Source: a virus
Strand: one strand, 5' to 3'
DNA: 64,000 nt
Virus record (IMG/VR): IMGVR_UViG_3300023174_004605
Span: 1 to 64,000 of that record
In this document: positions 12,420 through 58,545 of the stretch, in pieces
Numbering within the stretch: the stretch's first letter is position 1
Layout: the number at the start of each line of letters is the position of its first letter
The notes under the pieces: generated by a model
Database searches by the model: none
What the model was told of the DNA's origin: nothing
The model's input: only the letters and a program-made list of their open reading frames with translations
Made by a program: the position numbers and the translations under genes

Positions 12420-14861
12420 ATGCGTCGTAAACTGCTCTGGACAGCTCTTTTTGGTACAGTCGTAGTCATCACCGGTTGCGGTGGTGGCGGAGGCGGAGGT
12501 GGCGGAGGCGGTGGATATAATAGTCCATACAATAGCCCTAATCCTTATCTAAGAACTGAAGTTCCCTACAGCACACCGGTACGACAAGCCGTGGTTGATC
12601 CTTTGGTCAATGTCAACGATACTGGGTGGAAATGGGCAGTAGCCGATACCTTTGCCGCAGATGTGTCCGGCACAGGCAATCAAGACGTGCTGATAGCAGG
12701 ACGCATGACACAACCCACCGGCTCTGCCGATTGGGGCAACTTTCGACTCAGTATGTTTAGCTGGCAGAATGGCCGACTTGTAGACCGAACAGCTCAGTGG
12801 TTTCCTAATGACACAAACGTCATCATAGGCACCGAACCCGCTGTAAAATTTGCAGACTTTTTCAAGACAGGTCGCAACGACCTGTTTGTTGCTCCAGGCA
12901 CTGATACTACTATATATGGGCCTACTTATTTTTTCCGTAACACCGGCTCTAGTTTTGAACGTCAAACCTTGACTACAGCAAACATCTGGGCACACGATTC
13001 CGCGGTGGGTGACCTAGACGGTGACGGCTACAAAGACATTGCCATGGTTGGATATGGTGCCAACAGCATGACGTTTGCTATCAACAATCGAGTCAGCAGT
13101 TTCAATGTCTACTCCAGCAACAATGGTGGCGGCAGCGTGGCCATTGGCGACTTCATGCAAAACGGCCGTGGACAAATTATCGTCACAGATCAAAACAGAT
13201 CTGGCAACACTTCTCAAACCAATCTATATTCTTGGACCATTAATGCCAGCAACAATCTGGAATTTACCAAAATAAACACCTTGCCAACTCCTAGATTTGA
13301 ACTGCCCAAGTGGGCCGGATATGACTTTGGTGGCAATCACACTGTGAGATCTGTGGCCTATGACTTTAACAATGATAATGTTCCAGACGCTATCTTGTTC
13401 AGCAGACCGGCCAATTGGCAAAAATATCCCAACTACAGTGAAATACAGTTCTTGAAAAACAACGGTGGTGGCAACTTCGCTGATGTCACTGACACCACCT
13501 TGATCGGTTACAACAATCAGACAGCAGTGACTTACAATCCTAAGTTCCTGGATCTCAACGGTGACGGCTTGGAAGATATCTTGGTCAGTGGATCTGATTT
13601 TTCGGGCAAAAATACCAGCAATCAATTCTTGCTCAAAAGCCGAGACGGCAAGTATGTGGCTGCATACCAAAATATACTCACAGACTTCATGAACCAGGCC
13701 ACTGGACTACAAGGTGGCGACAATGGAGGCAATACAGTCAACGTTGTTAAGGGACCTGGAGGCAAACTATATTTGGTTACTGCTGTAAGCTTCATGAATG
13801 GTACAGACCGCCAATTAGCTCTATATATGAGTGAGATAGGCTCTCAAAGTACCACTACCGCACAAAACGCAGTAAACCTTATCCTGCAAAAGTGGCCTTA
13901 CATGACCGTGCCACAGGCCAATGCGGCTCTGGCACAGACTGCGGCTACATATTTCAACGGCGTGGCCATAATCAACGAAGAAGACATATTTAAACCCGTG
14001 GGCAGTTTGAGTTTGAGCACCATGGGTGGTTTCAAACCAATCTCGGGTTATTTGGCCGGTGTGAATCTCGGAGATGGAAATGTGGTGGCCTTGGACCAGT
14101 TGGGTCGCGGTTACAATCTTAATCTAGCTTCGATGAACGTAAACCGACTCAATGCATTTGGTTACAATACCGAACACAACGATCAATATGAGATGACCAG
14201 TCATGCAGAATACCTGGTCAACGGCGCACTGACCACGGTCAACGGCATGCGTGTGGGCACCGATTGGGCTGGCAGAGATAACGTAGGCATGGGCTTGAAC
14301 CGACCCACACAATACACCGTGGGAGTGCCAGGATGGTATAGAAAAGGTGCCTGGAGTCTGGGCACACAATATACCTATTTGAACACCAATCCTTGGATAG
14401 CGTTTGGTGGTGCCTGGGGTGAAGTAACCGGTTCTGGCATCATGGACAATGTAGTCTCATATCGCAATCGTGGATTCTTGGCACAGGCCAGTGCCATGTA
14501 TGTGAGCACCAACATTAATCCTGGGCTCATAACCCGAGTCAACAACATGTGGGGTACCTGGGCCGAAACTGGATATAGATTCGGCAATGTCAAACGCGAG
14601 GGAGATCTGGGTATTTTTGCCGGCATTAAACCTGTGGTTGTATCTGGATCGGTTGAAGCACGCATACCCACAGCCGTTGACATGTCAGGTAATGTAGTAT
14701 ATACTAACAAGAAGTTGATGGTGCAAAACCAAACCACTGGTTACGTTCGGGCACTATATACCAATCAATTGGACCGACGAACTCAGTTGAGACTGAGTGC
14801 TGTAAGTACTACCGCAGGACAGTATCGGGCCATGACTGAATTAAGATTTTGGGTTGATTAA
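12420..14861 (+). CDS. Large FG-GAP/VCBS-type lipoprotein
   Basis: An 813-residue protein with a lipoprotein signal: basic MRRK, hydrophobic core, lipobox ITGC with Cys20, then 12 consecutive glycines and an N/P/S-rich linker. Calcium-loop repeats typical of FG-GAP/VCBS propellers occur near residues 197 (DLDGDGYKD), 314 (DFNNDNVPD) and 377 (DLNGDGLED). The last ~200 residues alternate aromatic strands and look beta-barrel-like, ending LRFWVD. It should be exported and anchored in the host outer envelope, or incorporated in the virion. It has a dedicated promoter. Roles in adhesion or superinfection exclusion are guesses. Confidence 0.75.
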   Translation: MRRKLLWTALFGTVVVITGCGGGGGGGGGGGGYNSPYNSPNPYLRTEVPYSTPVRQAVVDPLVNVNDTGWKWAVADTFAADVSGTGNQDVLIAGRMTQPTGSADWGNFRLSMFSWQNGRLVDRTAQWFPNDTNVIIGTEPAVKFADFFKTGRNDLFVAPGTDTTIYGPTYFFRNTGSSFERQTLTTANIWAHDSAVGDLDGDGYKDIAMVGYGANSMTFAINNRVSSFNVYSSNNGGGSVAIGDFMQNGRGQIIVTDQNRSGNTSQTNLYSWTINASNNLEFTKINTLPTPRFELPKWAGYDFGGNHTVRSVAYDFNNDNVPDAILFSRPANWQKYPNYSEIQFLKNNGGGNFADVTDTTLIGYNNQTAVTYNPKFLDLNGDGLEDILVSGSDFSGKNTSNQFLLKSRDGKYVAAYQNILTDFMNQATGLQGGDNGGNTVNVVKGPGGKLYLVTAVSFMNGTDRQLALYMSEIGSQSTTTAQNAVNLILQKWPYMTVPQANAALAQTAATYFNGVAIINEEDIFKPVGSLSLSTMGGFKPISGYLAGVNLGDGNVVALDQLGRGYNLNLASMNVNRLNAFGYNTEHNDQYEMTSHAEYLVNGALTTVNGMRVGTDWAGRDNVGMGLNRPTQYTVGVPGWYRKGAWSLGTQYTYLNTNPWIAFGGAWGEVTGSGIMDNVVSYRNRGFLAQASAMYVSTNINPGLITRVNNMWGTWAETGYRFGNVKREGDLGIFAGIKPVVVSGSVEARIPTAVDMSGNVVYTNKKLMVQNQTTGYVRALYTNQLDRRTQLRLSAVSTTAGQYRAMTELRFWVD

Positions 14862-18073: not shown

Positions 18074-19020
18074 AAAAGATTGTATATGTAACCGGTTGTT
18101 TGGGATTTATAGGGGTTCATGTTACTCGCCAGTGCCTAGCACGTGGCTGGCACGTGATTGGTGTGGACAAAGGTACCTATGCCAGCAATTTTGATTTTTT
18201 AAATGAGTTTCAAAAATACGATACATTTAAGTTCATACACAAAGATATCAATGATCTTGATCGACTGTATGACTGCGATTATATAATAAACACAGCGGCT
18301 GAGACTCATGTGGATAACTCTATCATGAGTTCCGAAGTATTCCTGCGTAGCAACATCAACGGAGTGCACCGTCTGCTAGAACTGATCCGACAACAGCCTG
18401 TTCAAAAGCAACCAACATTGTTGCATTTTTCAACCGACGAAGTTTACGGCGACATTGATTTAGGCGCTCACACTGAAACTGATCTGTTAAAACCCAGCAA
18501 TCCTTATTCAGCATCCAAGGCAGCTGCCGACATGTTGATCCTGGCCTGGGCTAGGACCTATGGCATCAAATATGTGATTGTGCGCCCTACTAACAATTAT
18601 GGCATTGGTCAATATGTTGAAAAATTAATTCCCAAGTCAATCAAGTATCTTAAAATAGGAAAAAAAATTGACCTGCACGATCGTGGTGAGCCACAAAGAA
18701 CTTGGTTGCACGTTGAAGATACTGCTCGGGCAGTAATGACCGTGATTGATCACAACCGCATAAATGAAATCTATAACATTTCCGGCAATGCAGAAATGCC
18801 CAACAAAGAAGTTATTAAAAAGATTTTGCAACACTATCCCGGCGTCGGAGCCGGAGATCGTTGGGAAGATTACATCACTAGTAGCTACCGACAAGGCCAG
18901 GATGTGCGTTATGCAATCAACGACTCTAAACTCAAGGCCTTGGGGTGGCAACCCTTGGCCAACTTTGATCAAGAATTACAAAAAGTTATAGAGTATTACA
19001 TGTTAAATTTTATTTGGTGA
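18070..19020 (+). CDS. RfbB-like nucleotide-sugar 4,6-dehydratase/epimerase
   Basis: A TTG at 18070 overlaps the previous stop (TTGA) and gives the natural N-terminus KKIVYVTGCLGFIGVH; an upstream ATG at 18040 lies within the methyltransferase and would add ten residues. HFSTDEVYGDI is the dTDP-glucose 4,6-dehydratase signature (TDEVYG), with YSASK as the YxxxK pair and RTWLHVEDTARA later. It makes 4-keto-6-deoxy sugars. The nucleotide (dTDP, CDP or UDP) cannot be deduced. Confidence 0.85.
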   Translation: MKKIVYVTGCLGFIGVHVTRQCLARGWHVIGVDKGTYASNFDFLNEFQKYDTFKFIHKDINDLDRLYDCDYIINTAAETHVDNSIMSSEVFLRSNINGVHRLLELIRQQPVQKQPTLLHFSTDEVYGDIDLGAHTETDLLKPSNPYSASKAAADMLILAWARTYGIKYVIVRPTNNYGIGQYVEKLIPKSIKYLKIGKKIDLHDRGEPQRTWLHVEDTARAVMTVIDHNRINEIYNISGNAEMPNKEVIKKILQHYPGVGAGDRWEDYITSSYRQGQDVRYAINDSKLKALGWQPLANFDQELQKVIEYYMLNFIW

Positions 19021-19023
19021 TCT

Positions 19024-19710
19024 ATGGGAACATATTACAAAGAAGTAGCACAATTTATGGATGCAATTGATCCAACCGGTGCCTGGGTTGAGATTGGTGT
19101 TGATCGTGGCGAAGGTAGCACTAAATTTTTTGCTGATATAGCAAAAACAAAAGGCGTTAAGTTTTATGGGGTTGACGCAGATGAAAATCAAATCACACGG
19201 GCCAGAACAGTATTGTCATCACAAGGACAGGCAGTATTGGGTGCAGACGGACAATTTCGATTGGCCCAAGGGCCTTTGCCCGATCATATAGAACTGGTAC
19301 ATGCATTTGGTGAAAACTTTCTGGAACAATTCTCACGCGATAATCCTGGAAAGAAATTTTCGTTGGTGTACCTCGACAACTTTGATTGGGACTATTGGGT
19401 GGGCGGTCAAGAAGAATCTTTCGTTCCAGCAGTAAAACAACACTATAGAGATTATATGGGCACTGAAATGACCAACATCAACAGCCAAAAAACTCACCTG
19501 TTACAGGCCATGCGACTAATGCCATTGATGTGCAATAATAGCATTATTGTATGTGACGATACCTGGTATCATCCCAATGAAGGAGTGTTCATTGGCAAGT
19601 GTTCCGCGGCTATTCCTTACTTGCTGTTACAAGGATATGAAGTATTGAACAGCCAAGGCTACAGACAAAACAGTGGTGCTATATTAGGCAGATTTACTAA
19701 AGCGAGTTGA
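19024..19710 (+). CDS. Methyltransferase-fold protein, tandem copy 1
   Basis: A 228-residue protein with WVEIGVDRGEGSTKFFADI (motif I, D/E-rich variant) and FYGVDADENQITRA (motif post-I), characteristic of Methyltransf_24-type proteins. The second half contains YLDNFDWDYWV and IIVCDDTWY. It is a close paralogue of the next gene, with most of the C-terminal 120 residues the same in both. The substrate is unknown; the sugar context suggests a glycan. Confidence 0.75.
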   Translation: MGTYYKEVAQFMDAIDPTGAWVEIGVDRGEGSTKFFADIAKTKGVKFYGVDADENQITRARTVLSSQGQAVLGADGQFRLAQGPLPDHIELVHAFGENFLEQFSRDNPGKKFSLVYLDNFDWDYWVGGQEESFVPAVKQHYRDYMGTEMTNINSQKTHLLQAMRLMPLMCNNSIIVCDDTWYHPNEGVFIGKCSAAIPYLLLQGYEVLNSQGYRQNSGAILGRFTKAS

Positions 19711-19713
19711 TTG

Positions 19714-20334
19714 ATGGGCACCTACTATCGAAATGTAGAAAATTTTATACATCAAATTGATCCAGGTGTGTGGATTGAGATTGGTGTTGATCGCGGCGAA
19801 GGCAGTACCAAGTTCTTTGCAGACTTGGCCAAAAACCGTGCCACAAGATTTTATGCTGTGGACTATGACCAAGATCAAATTGACGGGCTCAAACAAACGT
19901 TTGTGAACATGCCCGATCATGTTCGAGCCATACAGGCCAAAGGTGAAGACTTCTTGGACAACTTTAGAAACTTGGAACCCACTGCTCAAGTGAGTTTGGT
20001 GTACTTAGATAATTTTGATTGGGACTATTGGGTCAATCGAAAAGCCAAACCTTTTGTGCCAGCAGTAAAAGAACGCTACTTACAAAAAATGGGAATCGAA
20101 ATGACCAATCTAAACAGTCAACAAGCCCATTTAAAACAAGCAATTCGGTTTATGCCATTGATGAGCGACAATAGTATTATTGTATGTGACGACACTTGGT
20201 ACGAACCAGATGAAGGTGTATTCATTGGCAAGTGCTCGGCGGCTATTCCTTATTTGTTATCCGAAGGTTATCGGTTATTGCACAGTGAGGGGCATCGTCA
20301 TAACAGTGGTGCTATATTAGGCAGATCGAAATGA
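19714..20334 (+). CDS. Methyltransferase-fold protein, tandem copy 2
   Basis: Start ATG 19714, three bases after the upstream stop (a TTG at 19711 would add one residue). It repeats the features of copy 1: WIEIGVDRGEGSTKFFADL, YAVDYDQDQIDG, YLDNFDWDYWV, IIVCDDTWYEPDEGVFIGKC and a shared NSGAILGR end. It lacks about 20 residues found in copy 1 around position 70-95. The pair arose by duplication and may act as a heterodimer or on two positions. Confidence 0.75.
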   Translation: MGTYYRNVENFIHQIDPGVWIEIGVDRGEGSTKFFADLAKNRATRFYAVDYDQDQIDGLKQTFVNMPDHVRAIQAKGEDFLDNFRNLEPTAQVSLVYLDNFDWDYWVNRKAKPFVPAVKERYLQKMGIEMTNLNSQQAHLKQAIRFMPLMSDNSIIVCDDTWYEPDEGVFIGKCSAAIPYLLSEGYRLLHSEGHRHNSGAILGRSK

Positions 20335-21068
20335 CCGTTAAAAATTATTTGGTATCGGCTGTGCGGCCAATCCAGAATGGATGGCACATGGAAAAGAATC
20401 AAGATCTGTACAAGGCCTACGGAGAAATGTACCAAATGAGGCTGGCCTCATTCCATAAATTTTGTCAAGAACCATTTGAGGCCGTGTTATGGACCGAACC
20501 CACCAACGACAATGACACTTATACAGAAGCCAACTGGAAAGCTATTAAAGAATTGTGGCATCAAGAACCCTGCAACATATTTTGGGCCGGGGCCGACACA
20601 TTTATGATCCGTCCTACCAGTCTATTCGGCGATCGTTTCAAAGAGTTCAGACTTTTCAACTACACTGAGCCCCGAAATCATAGAGAATTTCAACATCATT
20701 TTAACAACGACGTCATGTATTTCCCACATACCATGAAAAAAGAAATATGGGAACTGGGACAACAATACTGGGATGAACAACGAGAAACACACCCGGATCG
20801 CCATTGGGGGTTCGATCAACTAAGAAACAATGCCATGTTTTGGGCACAAGGTATACACGAAGATGATTGTTTACATCCTGAAATGAATTACATGTGTCAT
20901 AACTTGAGAAGTGATAGTCCAGCTGAACTAGAAGCTACCAGGATTTGGAATTCTGGATTGCCAATTGCAGATGCAAACATTTTGCATTTTTGTGCCAGCC
21001 GAGGCAGCATTCAAGTGGTCAATATGATGAAAGTATTATGTCAAGAACTGGAAGTCAAATATGGATGA
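20331..21068 (+). CDS. Putative GT-A glycosyltransferase
   Basis: A 245-residue protein resembling GT8/GT-A enzymes in outline: WAGADTFMIRPTSLF (a DxD-like site in front of the conserved 'P' loop), FNNDVMYFP (the N-x-G/D acceptor strand) and NILHFCASRG near the C-terminus (metal-binding His). Overlaps both neighbours. The family call is moderate; no exact donor can be given. Confidence 0.6.
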   Translation: MTVKNYLVSAVRPIQNGWHMEKNQDLYKAYGEMYQMRLASFHKFCQEPFEAVLWTEPTNDNDTYTEANWKAIKELWHQEPCNIFWAGADTFMIRPTSLFGDRFKEFRLFNYTEPRNHREFQHHFNNDVMYFPHTMKKEIWELGQQYWDEQRETHPDRHWGFDQLRNNAMFWAQGIHEDDCLHPEMNYMCHNLRSDSPAELEATRIWNSGLPIADANILHFCASRGSIQVVNMMKVLCQELEVKYG

Positions 21069-22380
21069 AATTTTAACACAAATCAAGCATTACATTGAAC
21101 AAAAACAAGCTGCCAAGACTTGGGTGGCTGGCAAGGATTTTGTAAACTACGCAGGGCCACATTTTGATTCAGATGAATATGTGGCTGCTGCCGAGACTTT
21201 GCTGAATGGCTGGTTGGTCATGGGCAACAAAAGCCTGCGCTTTGAACAAAAATTTCCAAAAGAATTTGGCAAATCACGCGGGGTGCTTACCAACAGTGGT
21301 AGTTCAGCCAACCTACTTATGATGACAGCAATGAAAAGCAAGCGTGGCCACAATTTTCCACCTGGCACCAAAGTACTGATGCCAATTGCAGGATTCCCAA
21401 CCACGCTTAATCCGACCTTGCAAAACGGATTCGTTCCTGTGTTCTGTGACATTGAAATCGATACCTTGAACATTGACTTGAATCAAGCAGAACACATACT
21501 TGCCAACGATCCTGACATCCGAATCATGACCTTTGCTCATGTGCTGGGTAACCCACCCAACATGGATCAAGTAATGGAATTGGTCCAACGACATAATTTG
21601 GTCTTGTTGGAAGATTGTTGTGATGGACTTGGAACTACCTATGATGGCAAACCTTTGGGCAGTTTTGGTGAAATGGCCTCGTGTAGTTTTTATCCAGCGC
21701 ATCACATGACCATGGGCGAAGGCGGTATTGTGGCCATGAATGATCCGCAACACGAAATAATTGTGCGCAGTCTGCGTGAGTGGGGTCGCGGTTGCTATTG
21801 TGTAGGACCCGAAGCCAACAAACTCAAATGTGGCACATGTGGCAAACGATTTCAAGAGTGGATTCCAGAGATGCCTGGCGAAATCTTTGATCACAAATAT
21901 GTTTATGACGAGATTGGTTACAACCTCAAGCCCATTGAACTGCAGGCAGCTATGGGTCTGGAACAGATCAAAAAATTGCCAGAGATACACGCACTACGCC
22001 AACGCAATTATAATCTACTGTTCAAGATCTATGAAAAGTATGAAGAGTTCTTCCACCTACCACGTGCAAGAGAAAAGGCAGATGTCAGCTGGTTTGCTTT
22101 TCCTCTTACCATACGTGAAGGGGCACCATTCTCACGCATGGACATTGTTGACTACCTAGAAGAAAATTTGATACAGACAAGACCATATTTTGCCGGCAAT
22201 ATCATGTTGCAACCAGCATATTCACATCTGATGGATACAGCACAGGCCCGGGACAATTTTCCTGTGGCCACATTCACCATGAAGAACACATTCTTTCATG
22301 GATGTAGTCCAGTTATCACGCCAGAACAGATTGCCTACATTGGCGAGAAAGTCGATGGCTTCATGAGTTTATTTAAATAA
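21061..22380 (+). CDS. RfbH-like PMP/[2Fe-2S] dehydratase of nucleotide 3,6-dideoxysugars
   Basis: The 439-residue product matches RfbH (E1, CDP-4-keto-6-deoxy-D-glucose-3-dehydrase). In SFYPAHHMTMGEGG the PLP lysine of DegT enzymes is replaced by His, the hallmark of the dehydratase branch. GRGCYCVGPEANKLKCGTC supplies the Cys cluster for [2Fe-2S]. LTNSGSSANLLMM and EDCCDGLG are the phosphate and ring-binding sites. It removes the C3 hydroxyl with an NADH-dependent reductase partner, which I do not see here. The next gene (TPP enzyme) fits a branched-sugar route. Confidence 0.88.
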   Translation: MDEILTQIKHYIEQKQAAKTWVAGKDFVNYAGPHFDSDEYVAAAETLLNGWLVMGNKSLRFEQKFPKEFGKSRGVLTNSGSSANLLMMTAMKSKRGHNFPPGTKVLMPIAGFPTTLNPTLQNGFVPVFCDIEIDTLNIDLNQAEHILANDPDIRIMTFAHVLGNPPNMDQVMELVQRHNLVLLEDCCDGLGTTYDGKPLGSFGEMASCSFYPAHHMTMGEGGIVAMNDPQHEIIVRSLREWGRGCYCVGPEANKLKCGTCGKRFQEWIPEMPGEIFDHKYVYDEIGYNLKPIELQAAMGLEQIKKLPEIHALRQRNYNLLFKIYEKYEEFFHLPRAREKADVSWFAFPLTIREGAPFSRMDIVDYLEENLIQTRPYFAGNIMLQPAYSHLMDTAQARDNFPVATFTMKNTFFHGCSPVITPEQIAYIGEKVDGFMSLFK

Positions 22381-34795: not shown

Positions 34796-35068
34796 ATGGC
34801 ATTCGACACTTTAACAAGTTTTGCTCGACAGCTAACAACTGCAGAAGAGACTTCAGTCCAAAACTATGTGACGACTCAAATGGGGTCAGGAACAACCAAT
34901 GGTATATCGTATAGTGTTCAACGAACCGGAGTAACCACCGCAGAAGGTCAACCCTTAGCACTCATTCTTCGCGGGTGGGTTGATGAAAGCTCAGCCAACG
35001 CCTATATAGCATTTTTGAATACTTTTAGCCCGGCGCCGGTTTATGCACAGACGGTGCAATCTGTATAA
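34796..35068 (+). CDS. Unknown protein under a late promoter (90 aa)
   Basis: Soluble, Thr/Ser-rich protein with a helix (TLTSFARQLTTAEETSVQNYV) and then beta strands (GISYSVQRTGVT, LALILRGWV). It has its own late promoter and strong ribosome site, as expected for an abundant late or virion-associated protein. Not recognised. Confidence 0.6.
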   Translation: MAFDTLTSFARQLTTAEETSVQNYVTTQMGSGTTNGISYSVQRTGVTTAEGQPLALILRGWVDESSANAYIAFLNTFSPAPVYAQTVQSV

Positions 35069-35072
35069 TACC

Positions 35073-35102
35073 TAGACTGGCAAAGTAAAATTGTAGTATA
35101 AT
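35073..35102 (+). promoter_or_regulatory. Probable promoter of the tmRNA
   Basis: A perfect TATAAT (35097-35102) with a weak -35 candidate TAGACT (35073-35078, 18-nt spacer). Confidence 0.5.
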
Positions 35103-35108
35103 GCCTTG

Positions 35109-35420
35109 AAAGAAAGGTGTTGCGGACCTGGGGGCAGAACCCAGCAGGTCCACCATAAAGAAATTACATAGACATTGATCATAGTTGTAATTGCATTGGT
35201 CTTCCATGTATTGAACAATTAGTTTCTTTATGATGGGCCTGACACAGTTTCGACGTGGCAACAAGTATGGACAGGATCTACACGGCAAAGCAGAAGCCGT
35301 AGGACTGGGGATTCCTGGTCGTAGAAGCAACCTTATTAAATGCAAACGCATCTAATGACGAGGTTTTTGCCTTAGCGGCATGATCTCCGGGGCAACTATG
35401 CCTTGTCACCCAAACTAGTC
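35109..35420 (+). ncRNA. ssrA: Circularly permuted (two-piece) tmRNA
   Basis: The acceptor piece comes first: T stem CTGGG/CCCAG (35128-35132, 35140-35144), then CAGGTCC and ACCA ending at 35155. The coding piece starts GGGCCTG (35235-35241), which pairs with CAGGTCC, and continues GACACAGTTTCGACG. The 79-nt spacer is closed by ATAAAGAAA/TTTCTTTAT (35155-35163, 35223-35231). GCAACA (35258-35263) pairs with TGTTGC (35118-35123) as helix P2. The tag frame 35342-35383 encodes ANASNDEVFALAA and stop, a proper ClpXP-type tag. Outer ends are approximate. It would release stalled ribosomes during infection. Confidence 0.93.
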
Positions 35421-35422
35421 TA

Positions 35423-35448
35423 AAAAGCCTGAGAAATCAGGCTTTTTT
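35423..35448 (+). terminator. Rho-independent terminator after the tmRNA
   Basis: Stem AAAGCCTGA/TCAGGCTTT with GAAA loop, followed by a T run. Confidence 0.9.
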
Positions 35449-35470
35449 GTTGGCCACTAAGTAAAAACCA

Positions 35471-35477
35471 CTAAATA
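35471..35477 (+). promoter_or_regulatory. Late-type motif CTAAATA before the porin
   Basis: Located about 50 nt before the porin start, in the intergenic gap, with AAAGGAAAA as ribosome site at about 35510. Confidence 0.45.
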
Positions 35478-37223: not shown

Positions 37224-37814
37224 ATGCCAGCAGTATTTTTAGTCAGCGACACACACTTTGGTCACGCAGGTGTATGTCGCTTTACCCGTAACGATGGTGT
37301 GACCAAACTCAGACCATGGACTGATCCAGATGAAATGGACGAGGCCATGGTAGCAGCGTGGAATGATCGTGTGCGTCCAAATGACAAGGTTTACCACTTG
37401 GGCGATGTTGTTATCAACCGCAAGGCCTTGGGCATCATGCGCAGGCTCAACGGTGAAAAGGTCTTGATCCGCGGCAACCACGATATTTTTAAAGACGAGG
37501 ATTATACACCTTATTTCCGTAGCCTACGTGCCTACCATGTGATGAATGGCATGATCTTGAGTCACATGCCTATTCACAGTGAAAGCCTGGGTCGCTTTGG
37601 TGTCAACATCCATGGACATTTGCACGCCAATCGTGTGATGTTGCCCGGATTCAATGGCAAGATCACCGACATCGTTGATACTAGGTATCATTGTGTGTGC
37701 GTGGAGCAGACCGACTTTGCGCCAATCCTGTTTGAAGATGTGGTCAAAAGAATCGAAGCAGAAGGTGGTGTAATAGGTTTCAAGAATGGCAATGGAACCA
37801 CGCAAGCGACCTAG
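37224..37814 (+). CDS. Calcineurin-like metallophosphoesterase
   Basis: A 196-residue enzyme with all family motifs in order: SDTHFGH (D-x-H), HLGDVV (GD), RGNHD (GNH), LSHMPIH and NIHGHLHAN (GHxH). The strong ribosome site AAAGGAGG lies before ATG 37224. Small phosphoesterases of this kind hydrolyse nucleotide or phosphoester substrates; the exact one is unknown. Confidence 0.9.
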   Translation: MPAVFLVSDTHFGHAGVCRFTRNDGVTKLRPWTDPDEMDEAMVAAWNDRVRPNDKVYHLGDVVINRKALGIMRRLNGEKVLIRGNHDIFKDEDYTPYFRSLRAYHVMNGMILSHMPIHSESLGRFGVNIHGHLHANRVMLPGFNGKITDIVDTRYHCVCVEQTDFAPILFEDVVKRIEAEGGVIGFKNGNGTTQAT

Positions 37815-37821
37815 TAGTTCG

Positions 37822-37898
37822 ACCCCGGTGGCGCAACAGGCAGACGCACTCTCCTCAGAAGGGAGCTGTTGAAGGTTCGAATCCTTCCCGGGGGACCA
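37822..37898 (+). tRNA. tRNA-Leu (CAG) with a short variable loop
   Basis: Anticodon stem CTCTC/GGGAG with loop CTCAGAA, anticodon CAG. T arm GAAGG/CCTTC. The acceptor pairs over six bases (CCCCGG/CCGGGG) with an A·G mismatch at 1:72; discriminator A and CCA. The variable loop is only five nt (37866-37870), although Leu tRNAs are class II. The D arm (GCGCAACAGGCAGACGC) is Leu-like. Confidence 0.85.
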
Positions 37899-37927
37899 TT
37901 GACATCATTGATCTTTTGTAGTATAAT
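37899..37927 (+). promoter_or_regulatory. Perfect consensus sigma70 promoter
   Basis: TTGACA (37899-37904), 17 nt, TATAAT (37922-37927), starting at the base after the tRNA CCA; drives the omega-like gene. Confidence 0.85.
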
Positions 37928-37948
37928 TGTTGTTCACAAGGAGAAGCC

Positions 37949-38170
37949 ATGAGTGTAAGAATTGAAAGTCGTAGCAGTGAAATTGATACCGAACGCTGTG
38001 TAGAGCATGCTGGTGGCCGTTATGATCTTGTGATCGCCGCCGCACAACGCTTAAGAGAAATGAAACGCCGAGCCAGAGAAACCAACTCTTGGGTCACGCC
38101 CATTGATGCACTCAAAGAAGTACAGAGTGGAACTTTTAATATGACTGATTATTTGGTAAAGGTAAAATAA
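37949..38170 (+). CDS. RNA polymerase omega subunit-like protein
   Basis: A 73-residue protein with the RpoZ pattern: ERCVEHAGGRYDLVIAAAQRLREM corresponds to EDCLEHIPNRFxLVLAAxxRARxL of betaproteobacterial omega, followed by PIDALKEVQSG for AVTALREIAEG. The C-terminus is shorter than in E. coli (91). AAGGAG site and perfect promoter. It could bind host beta' subunit and redirect transcription, or replace host omega. The match is by eye but covers nearly the whole protein. Confidence 0.75.
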   Translation: MSVRIESRSSEIDTERCVEHAGGRYDLVIAAAQRLREMKRRARETNSWVTPIDALKEVQSGTFNMTDYLVKVK

Positions 38171-38172
38171 AC

Positions 38173-38331
38173 ATGGCAAAACGTCAAAGTGCAGGTGAAC
38201 TAAGTCGAACCATTGCTGGACAATGGTCAAAAAGCGAAAAGCGTTCAGCGGCCAGTAGAAGCATCACAGAAGCCAACAAGAAAGCACATCAAACTCTCAA
38301 AAAAATTGCTCAACAAATGAGAATGAAGTAA
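38173..38331 (+). CDS. Small basic protein (52 aa)
   Basis: ATG 38173 two bases after the omega-like stop. Very basic, Ser/Ala/Lys-rich, helical C-terminus (ANKKAHQTLKKIAQQMRMK); may bind nucleic acid. Co-transcribed with the omega-like gene and followed by tRNA-Glu. Confidence 0.5.
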   Translation: MAKRQSAGELSRTIAGQWSKSEKRSAASRSITEANKKAHQTLKKIAQQMRMK

Positions 38332-38334
38332 CAT

Positions 38335-38410
38335 GCACCCATCGTCTAGAGGCCCAGGACTCGGCCCTTTCACGGCTGCAACAGGGGTTCGAATCCCCTT
38401 GGGTGTACCA
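38335..38410 (+). tRNA. tRNA-Glu (TTC)
   Basis: Acceptor GCACCCA/TGGGTGT, encoded CCA; anticodon stem CGGCC/GGCTG with loop CTTTCAC; D arm and T arm follow bacterial tRNA-Glu. Confidence 0.95.
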
Positions 38411-39529: not shown

Positions 39530-40450
39530 GTGGCAGTACTGAGCACTTGGCTGTACTTGATCTTGACCGGTCCAGGGTTTGAGTTGTATGAAACACATTG
39601 GCTCTATGCTCTAATGATGGTGTTTGGTTCGGCTGTAGCCGGCTTTACTCCCGAAGGCGGCGGCGCTGTGGCGTTCCCTATCTTGAGCTTGTATTTTAAC
39701 ATACCACCAACAGCGGCCAGAGACTTTAGCTTGGCCATACAAAGCATTGGAATGGTATCAGCGGCCATATGGATCCTAACAAGGAAAGCACATGCCCTAA
39801 GAACATTTAGACACATACCGTTTTATGCGGCTGTGAACATGATTGGTTTTGTGCTCATGACTGCTGTAGCAGGAGCCTTTGCTTTCAAAACCATACAGAT
39901 GTTGTTTGTGGGCTTGGCCCTGGCATTTATTGTAGCTTACCTAGTCAGCCGTGGGCGTGGAACGGTAGATGACGTGGAACTTTCTGGAACTAGATTTGTG
40001 ACTTTTGCTGTGTTTTCATTCATAGGTGGCTGTGCCTCTGCCATGTTTGGAACTGGAAGTGACATGTTGATCTACATAGCCTTGACCTGCTACTATGGTA
40101 TGAAAGAAAAGATCAGCACCGACATCAGCATTGTCCTCATGGCAGTGGTCACAGTGTTTGGTATTGCTTATCGTAGTTTGTTTTTAGACGCGGTGCATCC
40201 AGATGTTTATTTGATGTGGTTAGCGGCCGCACCGGTGGTGTTGTTCTTTGCTCCATTTGGTAATATCTTGTTAGGCTGGGCACGCAAAGAAACTATGCTT
40301 TACACCGTGCTGGCCATGAATGCAGTGAACTATTTTTATTTTATAAGTAAAAATATGAATTTGATTGTGCCAACCTTGATTACACTTGTTGTGTTTACAG
40401 CAATGTTTGTTTCAAGTTTTTATGTCAAAAACAAACTAAAACATGATTAA
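39530..40450 (+). CDS. TauE/SafE-family membrane permease
   Basis: A roughly 306-residue protein with about eight hydrophobic helices. GSAVAGFTPEGGGAVAFPIL is the N-terminal TauE/SafE signature, repeated in degenerate form as FIGGCASAMFGTGSDMLIYI, as expected for the internal duplication. The family exports sulfite or organosulfur anions. GTG 39530 is the first standard start but cuts into the first helix and lacks a ribosome site; ATT 39497, right after the upstream stop, would give TKKIIWPIWAV and has GGGGA upstream, so the true start may be there. Confidence 0.85.
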   Translation: MAVLSTWLYLILTGPGFELYETHWLYALMMVFGSAVAGFTPEGGGAVAFPILSLYFNIPPTAARDFSLAIQSIGMVSAAIWILTRKAHALRTFRHIPFYAAVNMIGFVLMTAVAGAFAFKTIQMLFVGLALAFIVAYLVSRGRGTVDDVELSGTRFVTFAVFSFIGGCASAMFGTGSDMLIYIALTCYYGMKEKISTDISIVLMAVVTVFGIAYRSLFLDAVHPDVYLMWLAAAPVVLFFAPFGNILLGWARKETMLYTVLAMNAVNYFYFISKNMNLIVPTLITLVVFTAMFVSSFYVKNKLKHD

Positions 40451-42077
40451 AAAAATTGTGATAGTAGGTGGCGGATTTGCTGGGTGGTATACAGCAGTTT
40501 CGTTGCAATACAACCTTCCAGAATTAGAAATCATTATCGTCGACAGCGAAAAGCATCCTACCATTGGAGTTGGAGAAACTGTGGGCTGGGATGCCCCGCT
40601 CAACTTACAAAGATTATGCGGCTTATCAGACGACCGACTTTTTATGTACGAGACCGGAGCCGTATACAAGTTCGGTGTAAGAGGCATTAACTTTTTTTCT
40701 GATAATTCGATTCACCGATGGGGGAAATTCCTAAACCTCAAAACATCAGCGTTGTGCAATTACTATAACGAATTTGATTATTCTGATTTTGATGAACCTT
40801 GGAATCGATCTCCCAATGACATTGGCACAATGAAAGCATGGTTGATTCGGTATCATGCCATGAAAAATTATGAAGATTTGTGTCTTGACTTAGGAGAATT
40901 AAATCATTTTTTAACCGAACCGGTGGCTCCTTTCAATCGCAACAACAAATACGTTTTGCGATCAGCACCAGGTCATGCATTTGGATATCATATTGACGCA
41001 GAAAAGTCAGGGGTTTTCTTGAAAAAAATAGCCTATCAAAGAAACACTGGTAAACTTAAACACATCACCAGCAGTGTTGTCAATGTTGCACTTGCAGATA
41101 ATGGTTCAATAGAAAAAATACAATTAGAAAACGGAGAAAATATCACCGGCGATTTATTCATTGATGCCTCTGGACTGCAACGAGTGATTGTGAGTCGCAG
41201 CACAAACTACAGTTGGACCGGCAAGGACCATAGATATTCTAATGCAGCATGGGTATGTCCTAGTCGCTACACTGATCCAACCAAAGAATTAATAGGTGCC
41301 ACTGAATTTATCGGCGACACATGGGGATGGCGATTCAAAATTCGATTGTTTCATCGTATAGGCAATGGTTATGTTTTCAATTCCGATCAAGTTGATCCAG
41401 AGAAACCATTGGCCACTATAAACGCCGCAACTAAAACAACACAACTCAAGGAGCCTAAACTTATAAGATGGTCTCCTGGCGAGTATGTGCATCATTGGCA
41501 TAAAAATCTTATTCCCGTAGGTATGGCAGCGAGTTTTATTGATCCTTATGATGCTCCAACTTTTGATGCGCACAGTCGATCACTTGATGATTTGTTAGAT
41601 TTGTTAAAAAATCCAAACAAATATAAAAACCCTGCAGAAGAATACAACAAACGCAGATCTTATACCGCAGAAGAAAGGAATCTACGTTTAGATATAACAT
41701 TCGGTATATCTCAACGTTCCGGTCCATATTGGGATTTACGTCGACAAATAGCACAGGAAAAAAATTGTTTGCGTGAACTAAAAAACATTATTTTAGAAAA
41801 AAGACTAGACCTCGAATCAAGGATGACCTGGCACTGGCATCAACAATATATTAGATCCGCTATGGCGGCCAAAGTAGACATGACCGATTGGGAGTTTCCT
41901 AAAGTGCCCGATAAAGACCTCGACATGCTGACAGCATTTTATAATTTCAATAGGCAACGCAACAAACACATTACACAACAAGAATGGCCAAATTACTCAA
42001 CATGGTTGCAACAAAACCGATTTAATGATCAGACCAACCAACAGGTTTTGCAAAGACTACAACCACAGCTTTGTTAA
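40443..42077 (+). CDS. Tryptophan-halogenase-like flavoprotein
   Basis: A 544-residue protein of the FAD-dependent halogenase family. IVGGGFAGWYTA is the FAD site; PTIGVGETVG the next block; YKFGVRGINF near residue 82 contains the Lys equivalent to PrnA Lys79; WGWRFKIRL resembles the WxWxIP motif with the Ile-Pro altered; GMAASFIDPYDAP is the flavin loop. Chlorination or bromination of an indole-like compound is typical, but the altered motif makes the reaction uncertain. Markedly AT-rich; overlaps the permease by 8 nt. Confidence 0.85.
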   Translation: MIKKIVIVGGGFAGWYTAVSLQYNLPELEIIIVDSEKHPTIGVGETVGWDAPLNLQRLCGLSDDRLFMYETGAVYKFGVRGINFFSDNSIHRWGKFLNLKTSALCNYYNEFDYSDFDEPWNRSPNDIGTMKAWLIRYHAMKNYEDLCLDLGELNHFLTEPVAPFNRNNKYVLRSAPGHAFGYHIDAEKSGVFLKKIAYQRNTGKLKHITSSVVNVALADNGSIEKIQLENGENITGDLFIDASGLQRVIVSRSTNYSWTGKDHRYSNAAWVCPSRYTDPTKELIGATEFIGDTWGWRFKIRLFHRIGNGYVFNSDQVDPEKPLATINAATKTTQLKEPKLIRWSPGEYVHHWHKNLIPVGMAASFIDPYDAPTFDAHSRSLDDLLDLLKNPNKYKNPAEEYNKRRSYTAEERNLRLDITFGISQRSGPYWDLRRQIAQEKNCLRELKNIILEKRLDLESRMTWHWHQQYIRSAMAAKVDMTDWEFPKVPDKDLDMLTAFYNFNRQRNKHITQQEWPNYSTWLQQNRFNDQTNQQVLQRLQPQLC

Positions 42078-42099
42078 TTAATTTTGATTTTAATCAGCA

Positions 42100-42183
42100 C
42101 ATAAATACCTTTCGCAACGCCGGGTTCTTCCGACGTCGGCATTCAAATCGACGCTTGACATTGTGATGTCTTTACTGTATTAT
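42100..42183 (+). promoter_or_regulatory. Double promoter region for the TctC-like gene
   Basis: CATAAATA late-type box (42100-42107), a CCGACGTCGG palindrome (42130-42139) and a sigma70 promoter: TTGACA (42155-42160), 17 nt, TATTAT (42178-42183), with TATAAT at 42181 as a second choice. The 178-bp intergenic gap is the longest in this half. Confidence 0.65.
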
Positions 42184-42196
42184 AATACATAACGCC

Positions 42197-42225
42197 GAGC
42201 CGTAGCAGAGTTCTTCTGCAAGCTC
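42197..42225 (+). promoter_or_regulatory. 5' leader hairpin of the TctC-like mRNA
   Basis: GAGC-cgta-GCAGA-loop-TCTGC-aa-GCTC forms a two-part stem in the leader, upstream of TTAGGAGA and the GTG start. It may stabilise the mRNA or regulate translation. Confidence 0.4.
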
Positions 42226-42254
42226 TTAAAAATTAAAAATTTAGGAGATCTAAC

Positions 42255-43181
42255 GTGATCAAAAAAATAGCCTCTCTGTTGGTTGTTCTGGCTGTTTGCA
42301 CCAGTGCCAGTGCCCGAGAAATAATTACTGTATATTCCCCTTACAGTCCCAGCCATGCTGGAACCACAGCCACTAGAAAAGTGTTTGAAGTGGCCAATGC
42401 CGCTCAAAACAAGTATCAATTTATTTTGGAATTCAAAGCCGGTGCACAAGGTGTATTGGCCTTGAAGGAAATCGAAGACAATCCTGCAAACAAACTGGCC
42501 ATTATCTTTGCGGCCTTTGTTGACAATGTTGAAAAGAAATTGATCAACGAGTCAGATTATGTGCCAGTACATGCACTGGGAGACGCTTGCTGGGCTGTGG
42601 TCAGCCTTGAAGGTGATCCCAGACAGGGAATAGCCAGTCTGGCCAGTGCCCGTGAAATAGTAGTGGGCAGCGTGGGATTTGGCAATGCCACCCATCTTAC
42701 GGCCTTGCAGATTGGATCCAGGTACAACGTACCAGTGCGTTTTGTGCCATTCAAGTCTAACTATGACAGCATGATGGCCATGGTGGGCGGGCACGGGATA
42801 ACCTTTAATTTAGAACGTGTCAGTGTGATTGAACAGTTCCGAGACAAAAATCCCAATCTCAAAATCTTGGCCATGAGTTGTCCTGTGCGCCATCCAGATG
42901 CTCCCGGTATAAAAACTTTAAAAGAACAAGGCATCACAGCTCCTTATGTGTTTAACACCATAGTGGCACACCAACGCATGTCTAGAGAGCGAGCCAAAGA
43001 GCTAGGTGCCATCTTGGATCAAGCCACGCTGACAGTGGGTGTTGACGAACTACGACGACTAAGCGATTTCCGCCCTGCTGTTTTTGACAAGATTTCTGCT
43101 GAAGAATTTACACGTAGCAGAATATCCATGGTCAAGCAGTTGAGACAGCAACATCGCAGTGCCATCGAAGAAAGCCGCTAG
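42255..43181 (+). CDS. Bug/TctC-type periplasmic substrate-binding protein
   Basis: GTG start with AGGAG seven bases upstream. Signal peptide (IKKIASLLVVLAVCTSASA, cut before REIIT). The mature 290 residues have the TctC outline: ITVYSPYSPSHAGTTATR at the N-terminus, FKAGAQGVLAL (ligand loop), IVVGSVGFGNATHLTAL (β strand and helix binding the carboxylate) and ITAPYVFNTIVAH. The family is hugely expanded in Burkholderiales, so host capture is likely. No TctA/TctB membrane subunits are nearby. Confidence 0.85.
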   Translation: MIKKIASLLVVLAVCTSASAREIITVYSPYSPSHAGTTATRKVFEVANAAQNKYQFILEFKAGAQGVLALKEIEDNPANKLAIIFAAFVDNVEKKLINESDYVPVHALGDACWAVVSLEGDPRQGIASLASAREIVVGSVGFGNATHLTALQIGSRYNVPVRFVPFKSNYDSMMAMVGGHGITFNLERVSVIEQFRDKNPNLKILAMSCPVRHPDAPGIKTLKEQGITAPYVFNTIVAHQRMSRERAKELGAILDQATLTVGVDELRRLSDFRPAVFDKISAEEFTRSRISMVKQLRQQHRSAIEESR

Positions 43182-57529: not shown

Positions 57530-58545
57530 TAAATTCTTATACCAGCTGGCAACCACTTGAAGAGGTCATAGTAGGACGAGCCTTTCCGCCTGACTACTTT
57601 GATTTTATTGACAACGCACAGGTGCGAAATCAATTACAACAAATCTTGGCAGAAACCGAAGAAGATTTATTAAATCTACAACGCATCATCGAACAATATG
57701 GTGCTCGGGTGCGACGACCAGATCTACCCAACAAAGACAATTTTACTCAACAACAAATATATAATAATGGTGCATCTTTGCCACCACTGACTCCAAGAGA
57801 TTGGCAAATTACCTTGGGTCAAAAATTATTGCGTGTATTACCTATTCCTGAATTAGATCAAATTTGTTCTGAGTATAAAACTCAAGTAATCAATCCACAC
57901 GGAGAAACCTGGAGTCCAGACTGTGTGTTAAATGGTGCAAGTGCATCATGCATCGTGCGTGTAGGGCGTGACATATTCTTTGATAATAGTGATTTTTTAC
58001 GCCCAGAGCAAACACGCTGGATCGTGGACAATGTGTTGGGGTCGGAATACAGAATACATGAAGCTGTAACTGATGGCCATGGCGATGCTGTATTTGCTAT
58101 ATTGAAACCCGGGGTTATACTAAGCAGCAAACATGACATGCATCTGCATCTAGCCCAGGATTTTCCAGGATGGGAAGTTTTAAAAATTTGGGACAGCTCA
58201 ATTTGGGCTGCTATGGAAGTTGGAAAATTTAAATGGGAAGCGAATCCAGGTGCATGGTATGTACAAGGACAAACACCTACACCCGAATTTACTGAATTTG
58301 TAGATTTATATCTTAATAAGTGGACAGGGTTTGTGGCCGAAACAGTATTTGATGTGAACTGCTTGGTGCTGGACGAAGAGAATGTGATCTTCAGTGCCTA
58401 CAATCGAGATGTTTTTGATTTTTGTAAAAAGCATAGAATCAATCCTATTATTTCAGAATTACGTCACAGTTATTTTTGGGATGGTGGAATCAGTTGTTGC
58501 ACCCAAGATCTTAGAAGACGTGGAGGATTGGAAACTTATCTATGA
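57526..58545 (+). CDS. Amidinotransferase-family enzyme (StrB/GATM-like)
   Basis: 339 residues; the N-terminus SWQPLEEVIVGRAFPPDYF fits the guanidino-group-modifying superfamily, followed by GASASCIVRVGRDIFFDNSD, GHGDAVF (Asp/His), and the catalytic Cys in WDGGISCCTQDLRRRGG (HC-T-D-RRRG in family members). It transfers an amidino group from Arg to an amine, for example on an aminosugar. Next to radical SAM and carbamoyltransferase genes. Confidence 0.85.
   Translation: MINSYTSWQPLEEVIVGRAFPPDYFDFIDNAQVRNQLQQILAETEEDLLNLQRIIEQYGARVRRPDLPNKDNFTQQQIYNNGASLPPLTPRDWQITLGQKLLRVLPIPELDQICSEYKTQVINPHGETWSPDCVLNGASASCIVRVGRDIFFDNSDFLRPEQTRWIVDNVLGSEYRIHEAVTDGHGDAVFAILKPGVILSSKHDMHLHLAQDFPGWEVLKIWDSSIWAAMEVGKFKWEANPGAWYVQGQTPTPEFTEFVDLYLNKWTGFVAETVFDVNCLVLDEENVIFSAYNRDVFDFCKKHRINPIISELRHSYFWDGGISCCTQDLRRRGGLETYL

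Follow-up and report, generated by a model that had tools for sequence, protein, structure and literature searches.

The window analysed here is a 64,000-nucleotide stretch that forms part of a 95,736-base IMG/VR virus record. On its plus strand, an open reading frame at positions 37,949 to 38,170 begins with ATG and encodes a 73-residue protein that matches the omega subunit of RNA polymerase (RpoZ) in profile and PDB sequence comparisons. The gene sits inside a tRNA gene cluster that also contains a permuted tmRNA. Upstream on the same strand are a calcineurin-like phosphoesterase gene (37,224 to 37,814) and a tRNA-Leu(CAG) gene (37,822 to 37,898). At the very next base after this tRNA begins a -35 element, TTGACA (37,899 to 37,904, plus strand), which a 17-base spacer separates from the -10 element TATAAT (37,922 to 37,927, plus strand). 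The perfect sigma-70 promoter described in the earlier note is indeed present, and so is its strong ribosome-binding site, AAGGAGA (37,938 to 37,944, plus strand), which is alike in relatives. A gene for a basic protein of 52 residues starts 2 nucleotides past omega on the plus strand (38,173 to 38,331), and the pair is followed on that strand by tRNA-Glu(TTC) (38,335 to 38,410). The permuted tmRNA gene lies at 35,062 to 35,474 (RF04321, 106.5 bits), with the tag ANASNDEVFALAA.

Searches for close relatives of the protein returned 14, then 16 viral stretches and one Legionella MAG contig, which together with the window make 18 window-type sequences. The promoter is conserved among them: the -35 element contains TTGAC in 18/18 and the full TTGACA in 15/18, the -10 element reads TATAAT in 17/18 and TACAAT in 1/18, and the spacer is 17 bases in every case. 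The omega gene itself is under purifying selection (pN/pS 0.25, 105 pairs). An ORF that appears by eye to be related to the 52-residue protein lies behind omega in 16 of the 18 loci; one locus differs, and one loses the region to the contig end. Pfam, NCBIfam and PHROGs contained nothing that matched the 52-residue protein at E ≤ 0.01.

Comparison with RpoZ models found similarity, as the earlier note had proposed for this phage protein. It scored 23.7 bits against the NCBIfam model TIGR00690 (cut-off 23.6) and 23.9 bits against Pfam RNA_pol_Rpb6 (PF01192, E = 4.3e-5), the latter below the gathering score of 26. All 20 of its 20 PDB sequence matches were omega (E from 5e-4 to 0.9), and a PHROGs search matched phrog_20828 at E = 0.03. 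An HMM was made from the best 30 bacterial omegas, taken from the class of the bacterial genome G009, in which 70/75 genomes matched. With this HMM the window protein scored 20.1 bits, whereas 2000 shuffled versions of it reached no more than 13.8, and 17 of the 18 window-type sequences came out above the best shuffle, with L058 below. When the phage and bacterial alignments were compared with hhalign, they matched over 52 columns with a probability of 95.8 and an E-value of 7.6e-9. In the reverse search, with E ≤ 0.001 as the limit, the phage profile matched 83/299 genomes from the phylum, and the 12 loci fetched comprised 11 omegas starting with MAR and one phage-like Legionella MAG contig. 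Conserved core residues of omega are in register in the window-type proteins, and several other conserved residues differ. The likeness to RpoZ, which had been described as nearly full-length, holds for residues 12 to 65 but not for the first 11, and a specifically betaproteobacterial affinity is not borne out, as the sequence alone points to no single clade.

We also compared predicted folds, using AlphaFold2 models with a mean pLDDT of 74.5 (medium confidence). The top Foldseek match of the window model, a mycobacterial polymerase chain, was non-significant. All of the structure comparisons fell below Z = 8, the tool's telling level, and are not decisive alone: on realignment of the window model, 9/11 chains reached Z ≥ 2 (best 4.1), all from entries containing RNA polymerase, and for the model of a relative, L057, 53 of 81 aligned chains reached Z ≥ 5 (best 7.0). 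All 50 of the 50 entries listed for the latter are RNA polymerase complexes, the matched chains being taken as omega from chain letter and length.

Far clearer omegas emerged in sister phages when relatives of the phage's DNA polymerase were followed up. In viral contigs, at least 600 stretches are related to this polymerase, and the best 80 of them were kept. Among 13 large records that bear it and were searched with the window-type profile, two encode an omega, both near-canonical; the other 11, which may be fragments, gave none with that profile. Searches with these two omegas confirmed 217 and 7 stretches, and a third query 188; the three sets overlap, and at most 80 of each were kept. Omega is encoded in more than 200 environmental viral stretches. 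All four sister-phage omegas tested scored above the Pfam cut-off (47 to 59 bits) and well above that of TIGR00690. A DNA polymerase homologue (57 to 82% identity) is present in 10 of 23 further omega-bearing records. Like the window type, the sister jumbo-phage omegas (L198-L199, L200-L285 and L286-L365) are viral and carry E29, a residue found in all 90 distinct phage omegas, and in many of these phages, with their other omega types, the same phosphoesterase gene adjoins omega. Unlike the window type, most retain A-R-x-T and show A as residue 9, and a consensus-type promoter lies within 220 nucleotides upstream in only 3/85 of them, as against 18/18. In L198, a structured-looking non-coding stretch at about 1200 to 1440, between omega and the phosphoesterase, had no Rfam match. 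One viral record of 524,565 bases (G395) holds two DNA polymerase copies on opposite strands (18,719 to 21,427 and 508,485 to 511,193), which may reflect an assembly that is inverted or chimeric.

Of the polymerase subunits, omega is the smallest and the least well understood, and how much ppGpp site 1 matters is a subject of debate. Passages of one study (PMC7676912) report that omega residues 2 to 5 coordinate ppGpp at site 1; that polymerase with an omega lacking these residues has, without DksA, a Kd for ppGpp above 100 uM; that the polymerase M7, with this omega and three beta' changes, binds ppGpp only about 2-fold worse; and that site 2 (DksA) has a larger effect than site 1. A passage elsewhere names the MAR motif as a (p)ppGpp contact (PMC6416229). 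All 30 of the sampled bacterial omegas have A2, R3 and T5. The window protein lacks the A-R-x-T of ppGpp-responsive omegas at residues 2 to 5: codons 9 to 13 (37,973 to 37,987, plus strand) encode S-S-E-I-D at the place of the bacterial M-A-R-V-T, behind an 8-codon N-terminal extension (37,949 to 37,972, plus strand) that is not found in the sampled bacterial omegas. The same holds across a clade of 28 distinct sequences, namely the 18 of the window type and 10 further ones. In this clade R3 occurs in 0/28 and position 5 is D in 28/28, position 3 being E, Q, N, P, L, I or M. Most of the 28 have an N-terminal extension, and its residues S7 and R8 are invariant in 18/18 window-type sequences. 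Among 62 distinct omegas of other phage groups, 60 have R3 and 61 have T or S as residue 5, in some cases behind an extension of their own (for example M-T-E-S-R-A-R-Y-T). Position 9 is C both in the clade lacking the site-1 residues and in the sampled bacteria, and A in the other phage omegas; because of this common residue, the clade may stem from a second uptake of omega from bacteria.

To relate these groups to one another, we constructed a tree of 118 sequences, which with positions 1 to 5 left out rests on only 69 columns and leaves many forks open. The 27 rows without site-1 residues form one branch (98/94), as do the window-type rows (100/100) and the bacterial omegas (100/100), the last apart from the phage omegas. 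Intermediates such as L363 and L259 bridge the group without site-1 residues and the group that keeps R3. The score under the Pfam gathering score and the position of L058 below the best shuffle would fit a protein that is no omega at all and has a chance or very distant likeness to one. We regard this as extremely improbable in view of the reciprocal profile searches, the fold, the tree and the intermediate sequences, the last of which largely refute it; we rejected chance likeness on the strength of the shuffles, the reverse profile search, the intermediates and the tree. There is good support for placing the ORF at 37,949 to 38,170, diverged as it is, in the RNA polymerase omega (RpoZ) family, and the gene is a real, conserved, phage-borne omega.

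Phage omegas were also sought elsewhere. None was found in nine named phage genomes (including Phosso, Atu_ph07, PA5oct, 121Q and T4). When one bacterial and three phage omegas were compared by tblastn with 50,697 phage records, significant matches occurred only where there is host-like DNA: equal-scoring omegas of the E. coli/Salmonella type in several records, two Salmonella contigs, and an Acinetobacter record annotated rpoZ. We judge these matches, short of proof, to be host DNA. Open PubMed Central text, as covered by titles, abstract starts and passages, yielded no description of a phage omega. A bacterial source was considered and set aside, as the scan of species genomes gave a single match, L060, a contig of 3.3 kb that was binned with a Legionella MAG but has the gene order of this phage, which we take to be a phage contig. 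The bacterial gmk/spoT neighborhood was likewise rejected: ORFs flanking 30 bacterial rpoZ genes match only 9/86 phage omega loci, in five through a SpoT-like HD gene and in four through a weak match that overlaps omega itself.

The phage that carries the window's omega belongs to a group of jumbo T4-like phages. G002, a relative of 337 kb, has genes for homologues of T4 DNA polymerase, UvsX, gp44, gp46 and gp47 and for a gp55-like late sigma, and its DNA polymerase is nearest to those of Sinorhizobium phage Phosso (49.9%) and Agrobacterium phage Atu_ph07 (46.3%). The gp55-like sigma is found in 6/9 window-type records (E about 1e-62); it had no match in the other three, which are pieces of 71 to 96 kb and include the window's own 95.7-kb fragment. 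In G002, sigma-70-like promoters number 31, with a mean of 0.55 expected from 20 resampled sequences, and heptamers of the ATAAATA/CTAAATA type are 12 to 15 times enriched upstream of ORFs. The beta' domain PF00623 was found in 0/9 window-type and 0/23 further omega-bearing records, some of which may be fragments. We accordingly rejected the idea that omega is part of a phage-encoded polymerase, and since no beta' was found, any partner of the phage omega must be the host polymerase. Together with the sigma-70-like promoters, the TAAATA-type motifs and the gp55-like sigma, this means that the phage appears to rely on the host polymerase and to switch to late transcription in a T4-like manner. 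A phage DksA/TraR partner was also looked for and rejected (0/9 phage records; the sole match lay in the bacterial genome G009).

Our leading reading, held tentatively, is that the phage omega occupies the omega seat of the host polymerase, where ppGpp site 1 then does not function; membership of the family is observed, and binding and ppGpp blindness we infer. The gene would be transcribed from its host-type sigma-70 promoter and for that reason is probably expressed early. Its product is predicted to take the omega position on host beta', whether the polymerase is newly made, lacks omega or has exchanged it, and we infer that host omega is displaced. Polymerase carrying the phage omega would be unable to form site 1, because residues 2 to 5 are not A-R-x-T, and middle and late phage transcription by the host core with the gp55-like sigma would be less exposed to the stringent response. 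In short, the phage may alter the host enzyme so that it disregards the starvation alarm. Judged from sequence, this ppGpp mechanism is plausible, but site 2 (DksA), which is untouched by the phage omega, argues against blindness, as does the only about 2-fold weaker ppGpp binding of M7. The invariant S7-R8 of the extension could substitute for A2-R3, and the clade's loss of N15, K25 and K44, which the sampled bacteria keep, could mean weaker or different beta' binding.

The earlier note had suggested that the protein counters (p)ppGpp control. For the clade of the window this idea has a concrete basis, because the omega-side residues of site 1 are exactly those lost there (R3 in none, D5 throughout), but it does not carry over to the other phage omegas, nearly all of which keep R3. 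Because most of them retain the site-1 residues, evasion of ppGpp fails to account for the presence of omega in phages, and the general reason for omega in jumbo phages must be something else or something more. It is possible, if on the doubtful side, that there is a jumbo-phage omega lineage in which one clade swaps the host subunit and abolishes site 1 while its sisters keep a ppGpp-sensing omega. If true, the clade and its sisters would be a natural experiment on the purpose of omega and of site 1, and the replacement of a host polymerase subunit by a viral version would be an unusual form of host takeover. Viral omegas with and without the site-1 residues offer matched natural variants with which to test both.

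The coexistence in sister phages of omegas with and without site-1 residues would also fit a structural role, in which the phage omega maintains or assembles the host core during a long infection, the N-terminus has drifted neutrally, and site-1 ppGpp control is not met. Omega is reported, in a passage of PMC7700224, to aid beta' folding and assembly. The invariant D5 of the 28 sequences and S7-R8 of the 18, which look like a fixed new state, argue against drift, and we consider this explanation somewhat unlikely. Less probable still, in our estimation, is a docking subunit, whose N-terminal extension would recruit a phage factor such as the 52-residue protein or the late sigma machinery and so favor phage promoters. 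The extension is conserved, an ORF for a related 52-residue protein usually follows omega, and there is a precedent in the activator GafA, which according to a passage of PMC9638019 acts by direct omega contact; yet the partner is only putative, the 52-residue protein lacks a database match, and L015 lacks that protein. The clade's loss of several residues that the sampled bacteria keep would suit a decoy, a diverged omega that binds beta' and impairs host transcription, but a poisoned host enzyme would harm a phage in whose records no polymerase of its own was found, and sister phages carry near-canonical omegas; we think a decoy very improbable.

In 5/86 loci omega is followed, at a distance of about 2.5 kb, by a SpoT-like HD gene. 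The one tested matched HD_4 with an E-value of 3e-17, and its likeness to the RelA/SpoT model was confined to the HD part. HD_4 occurs in 7/38 records of the wider group (5 above the cut-off) and in 0/9 window-type records, and two records with an N-terminus lacking the site-1 residues also carry the SpoT-like HD domain; HD_4 therefore neither replaces nor regularly accompanies the loss of site 1. Stand-alone SpoT-like HD_4 genes near omega are found at L366:251-787 and near the ends of L220, L231, L235, L238 and L247. From their sequence, the products of these stand-alone genes in sister phages are possibly (p)ppGpp hydrolases.

Set against known systems, the window omega shares with bacterial RpoZ (PF01192, TIGR00690) the core E-x-C, R-[FY]-x-L-V, A, R-x-R, A-L-x-E and G and, in models of medium confidence, a helical fold. 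It differs in being phage-borne and not beside gmk/spoT, and in its N-terminus, a shorter loop, Y for F17, E for Q29 and the missing K44. As in T4-type takeover (gp55, gp33, RpbA, AsiA), a gp55-like late sigma stands beside gp47/gp46 homologues, and TAAATA-type motifs lie upstream of genes in the window's phage group. In contrast to the window's phage, T4 has no PF01192 match, and the 337-kb relative had no homologue of T4 RpbA at a telling E-value. RpbA is not known to be an omega homologue; gp33 and AsiA are parts of the T4-type takeover of the host polymerase. Large eukaryotic viruses carry Rpb6 homologues and are similar in this respect, but they carry their own multisubunit polymerase, whereas here no beta' was found.

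Other genes of these phages were noted in passing. The 337-kb phage encodes an isocitrate lyase (G002, 128,987 to 130,282, equivalent to L029:8987-10282; PF00463, E = 6e-106). In the window, TauE-like exporter, tryptophan-halogenase-like and TctC-like genes lie at 39,530 to 43,181, and an 813-residue protein, whose lipoprotein-like start precedes a glycine run, is encoded at 12,420 to 14,861, with a sigma-70-like promoter ahead of it. From window position 58,542 to record position 71,809, several radical-SAM/SPASM-like protein starts were seen by eye, mostly on the minus strand. A 4771-residue ORF occupies 78,420 to 92,735 of the phage record G000 and has a 4992-residue counterpart in G002.
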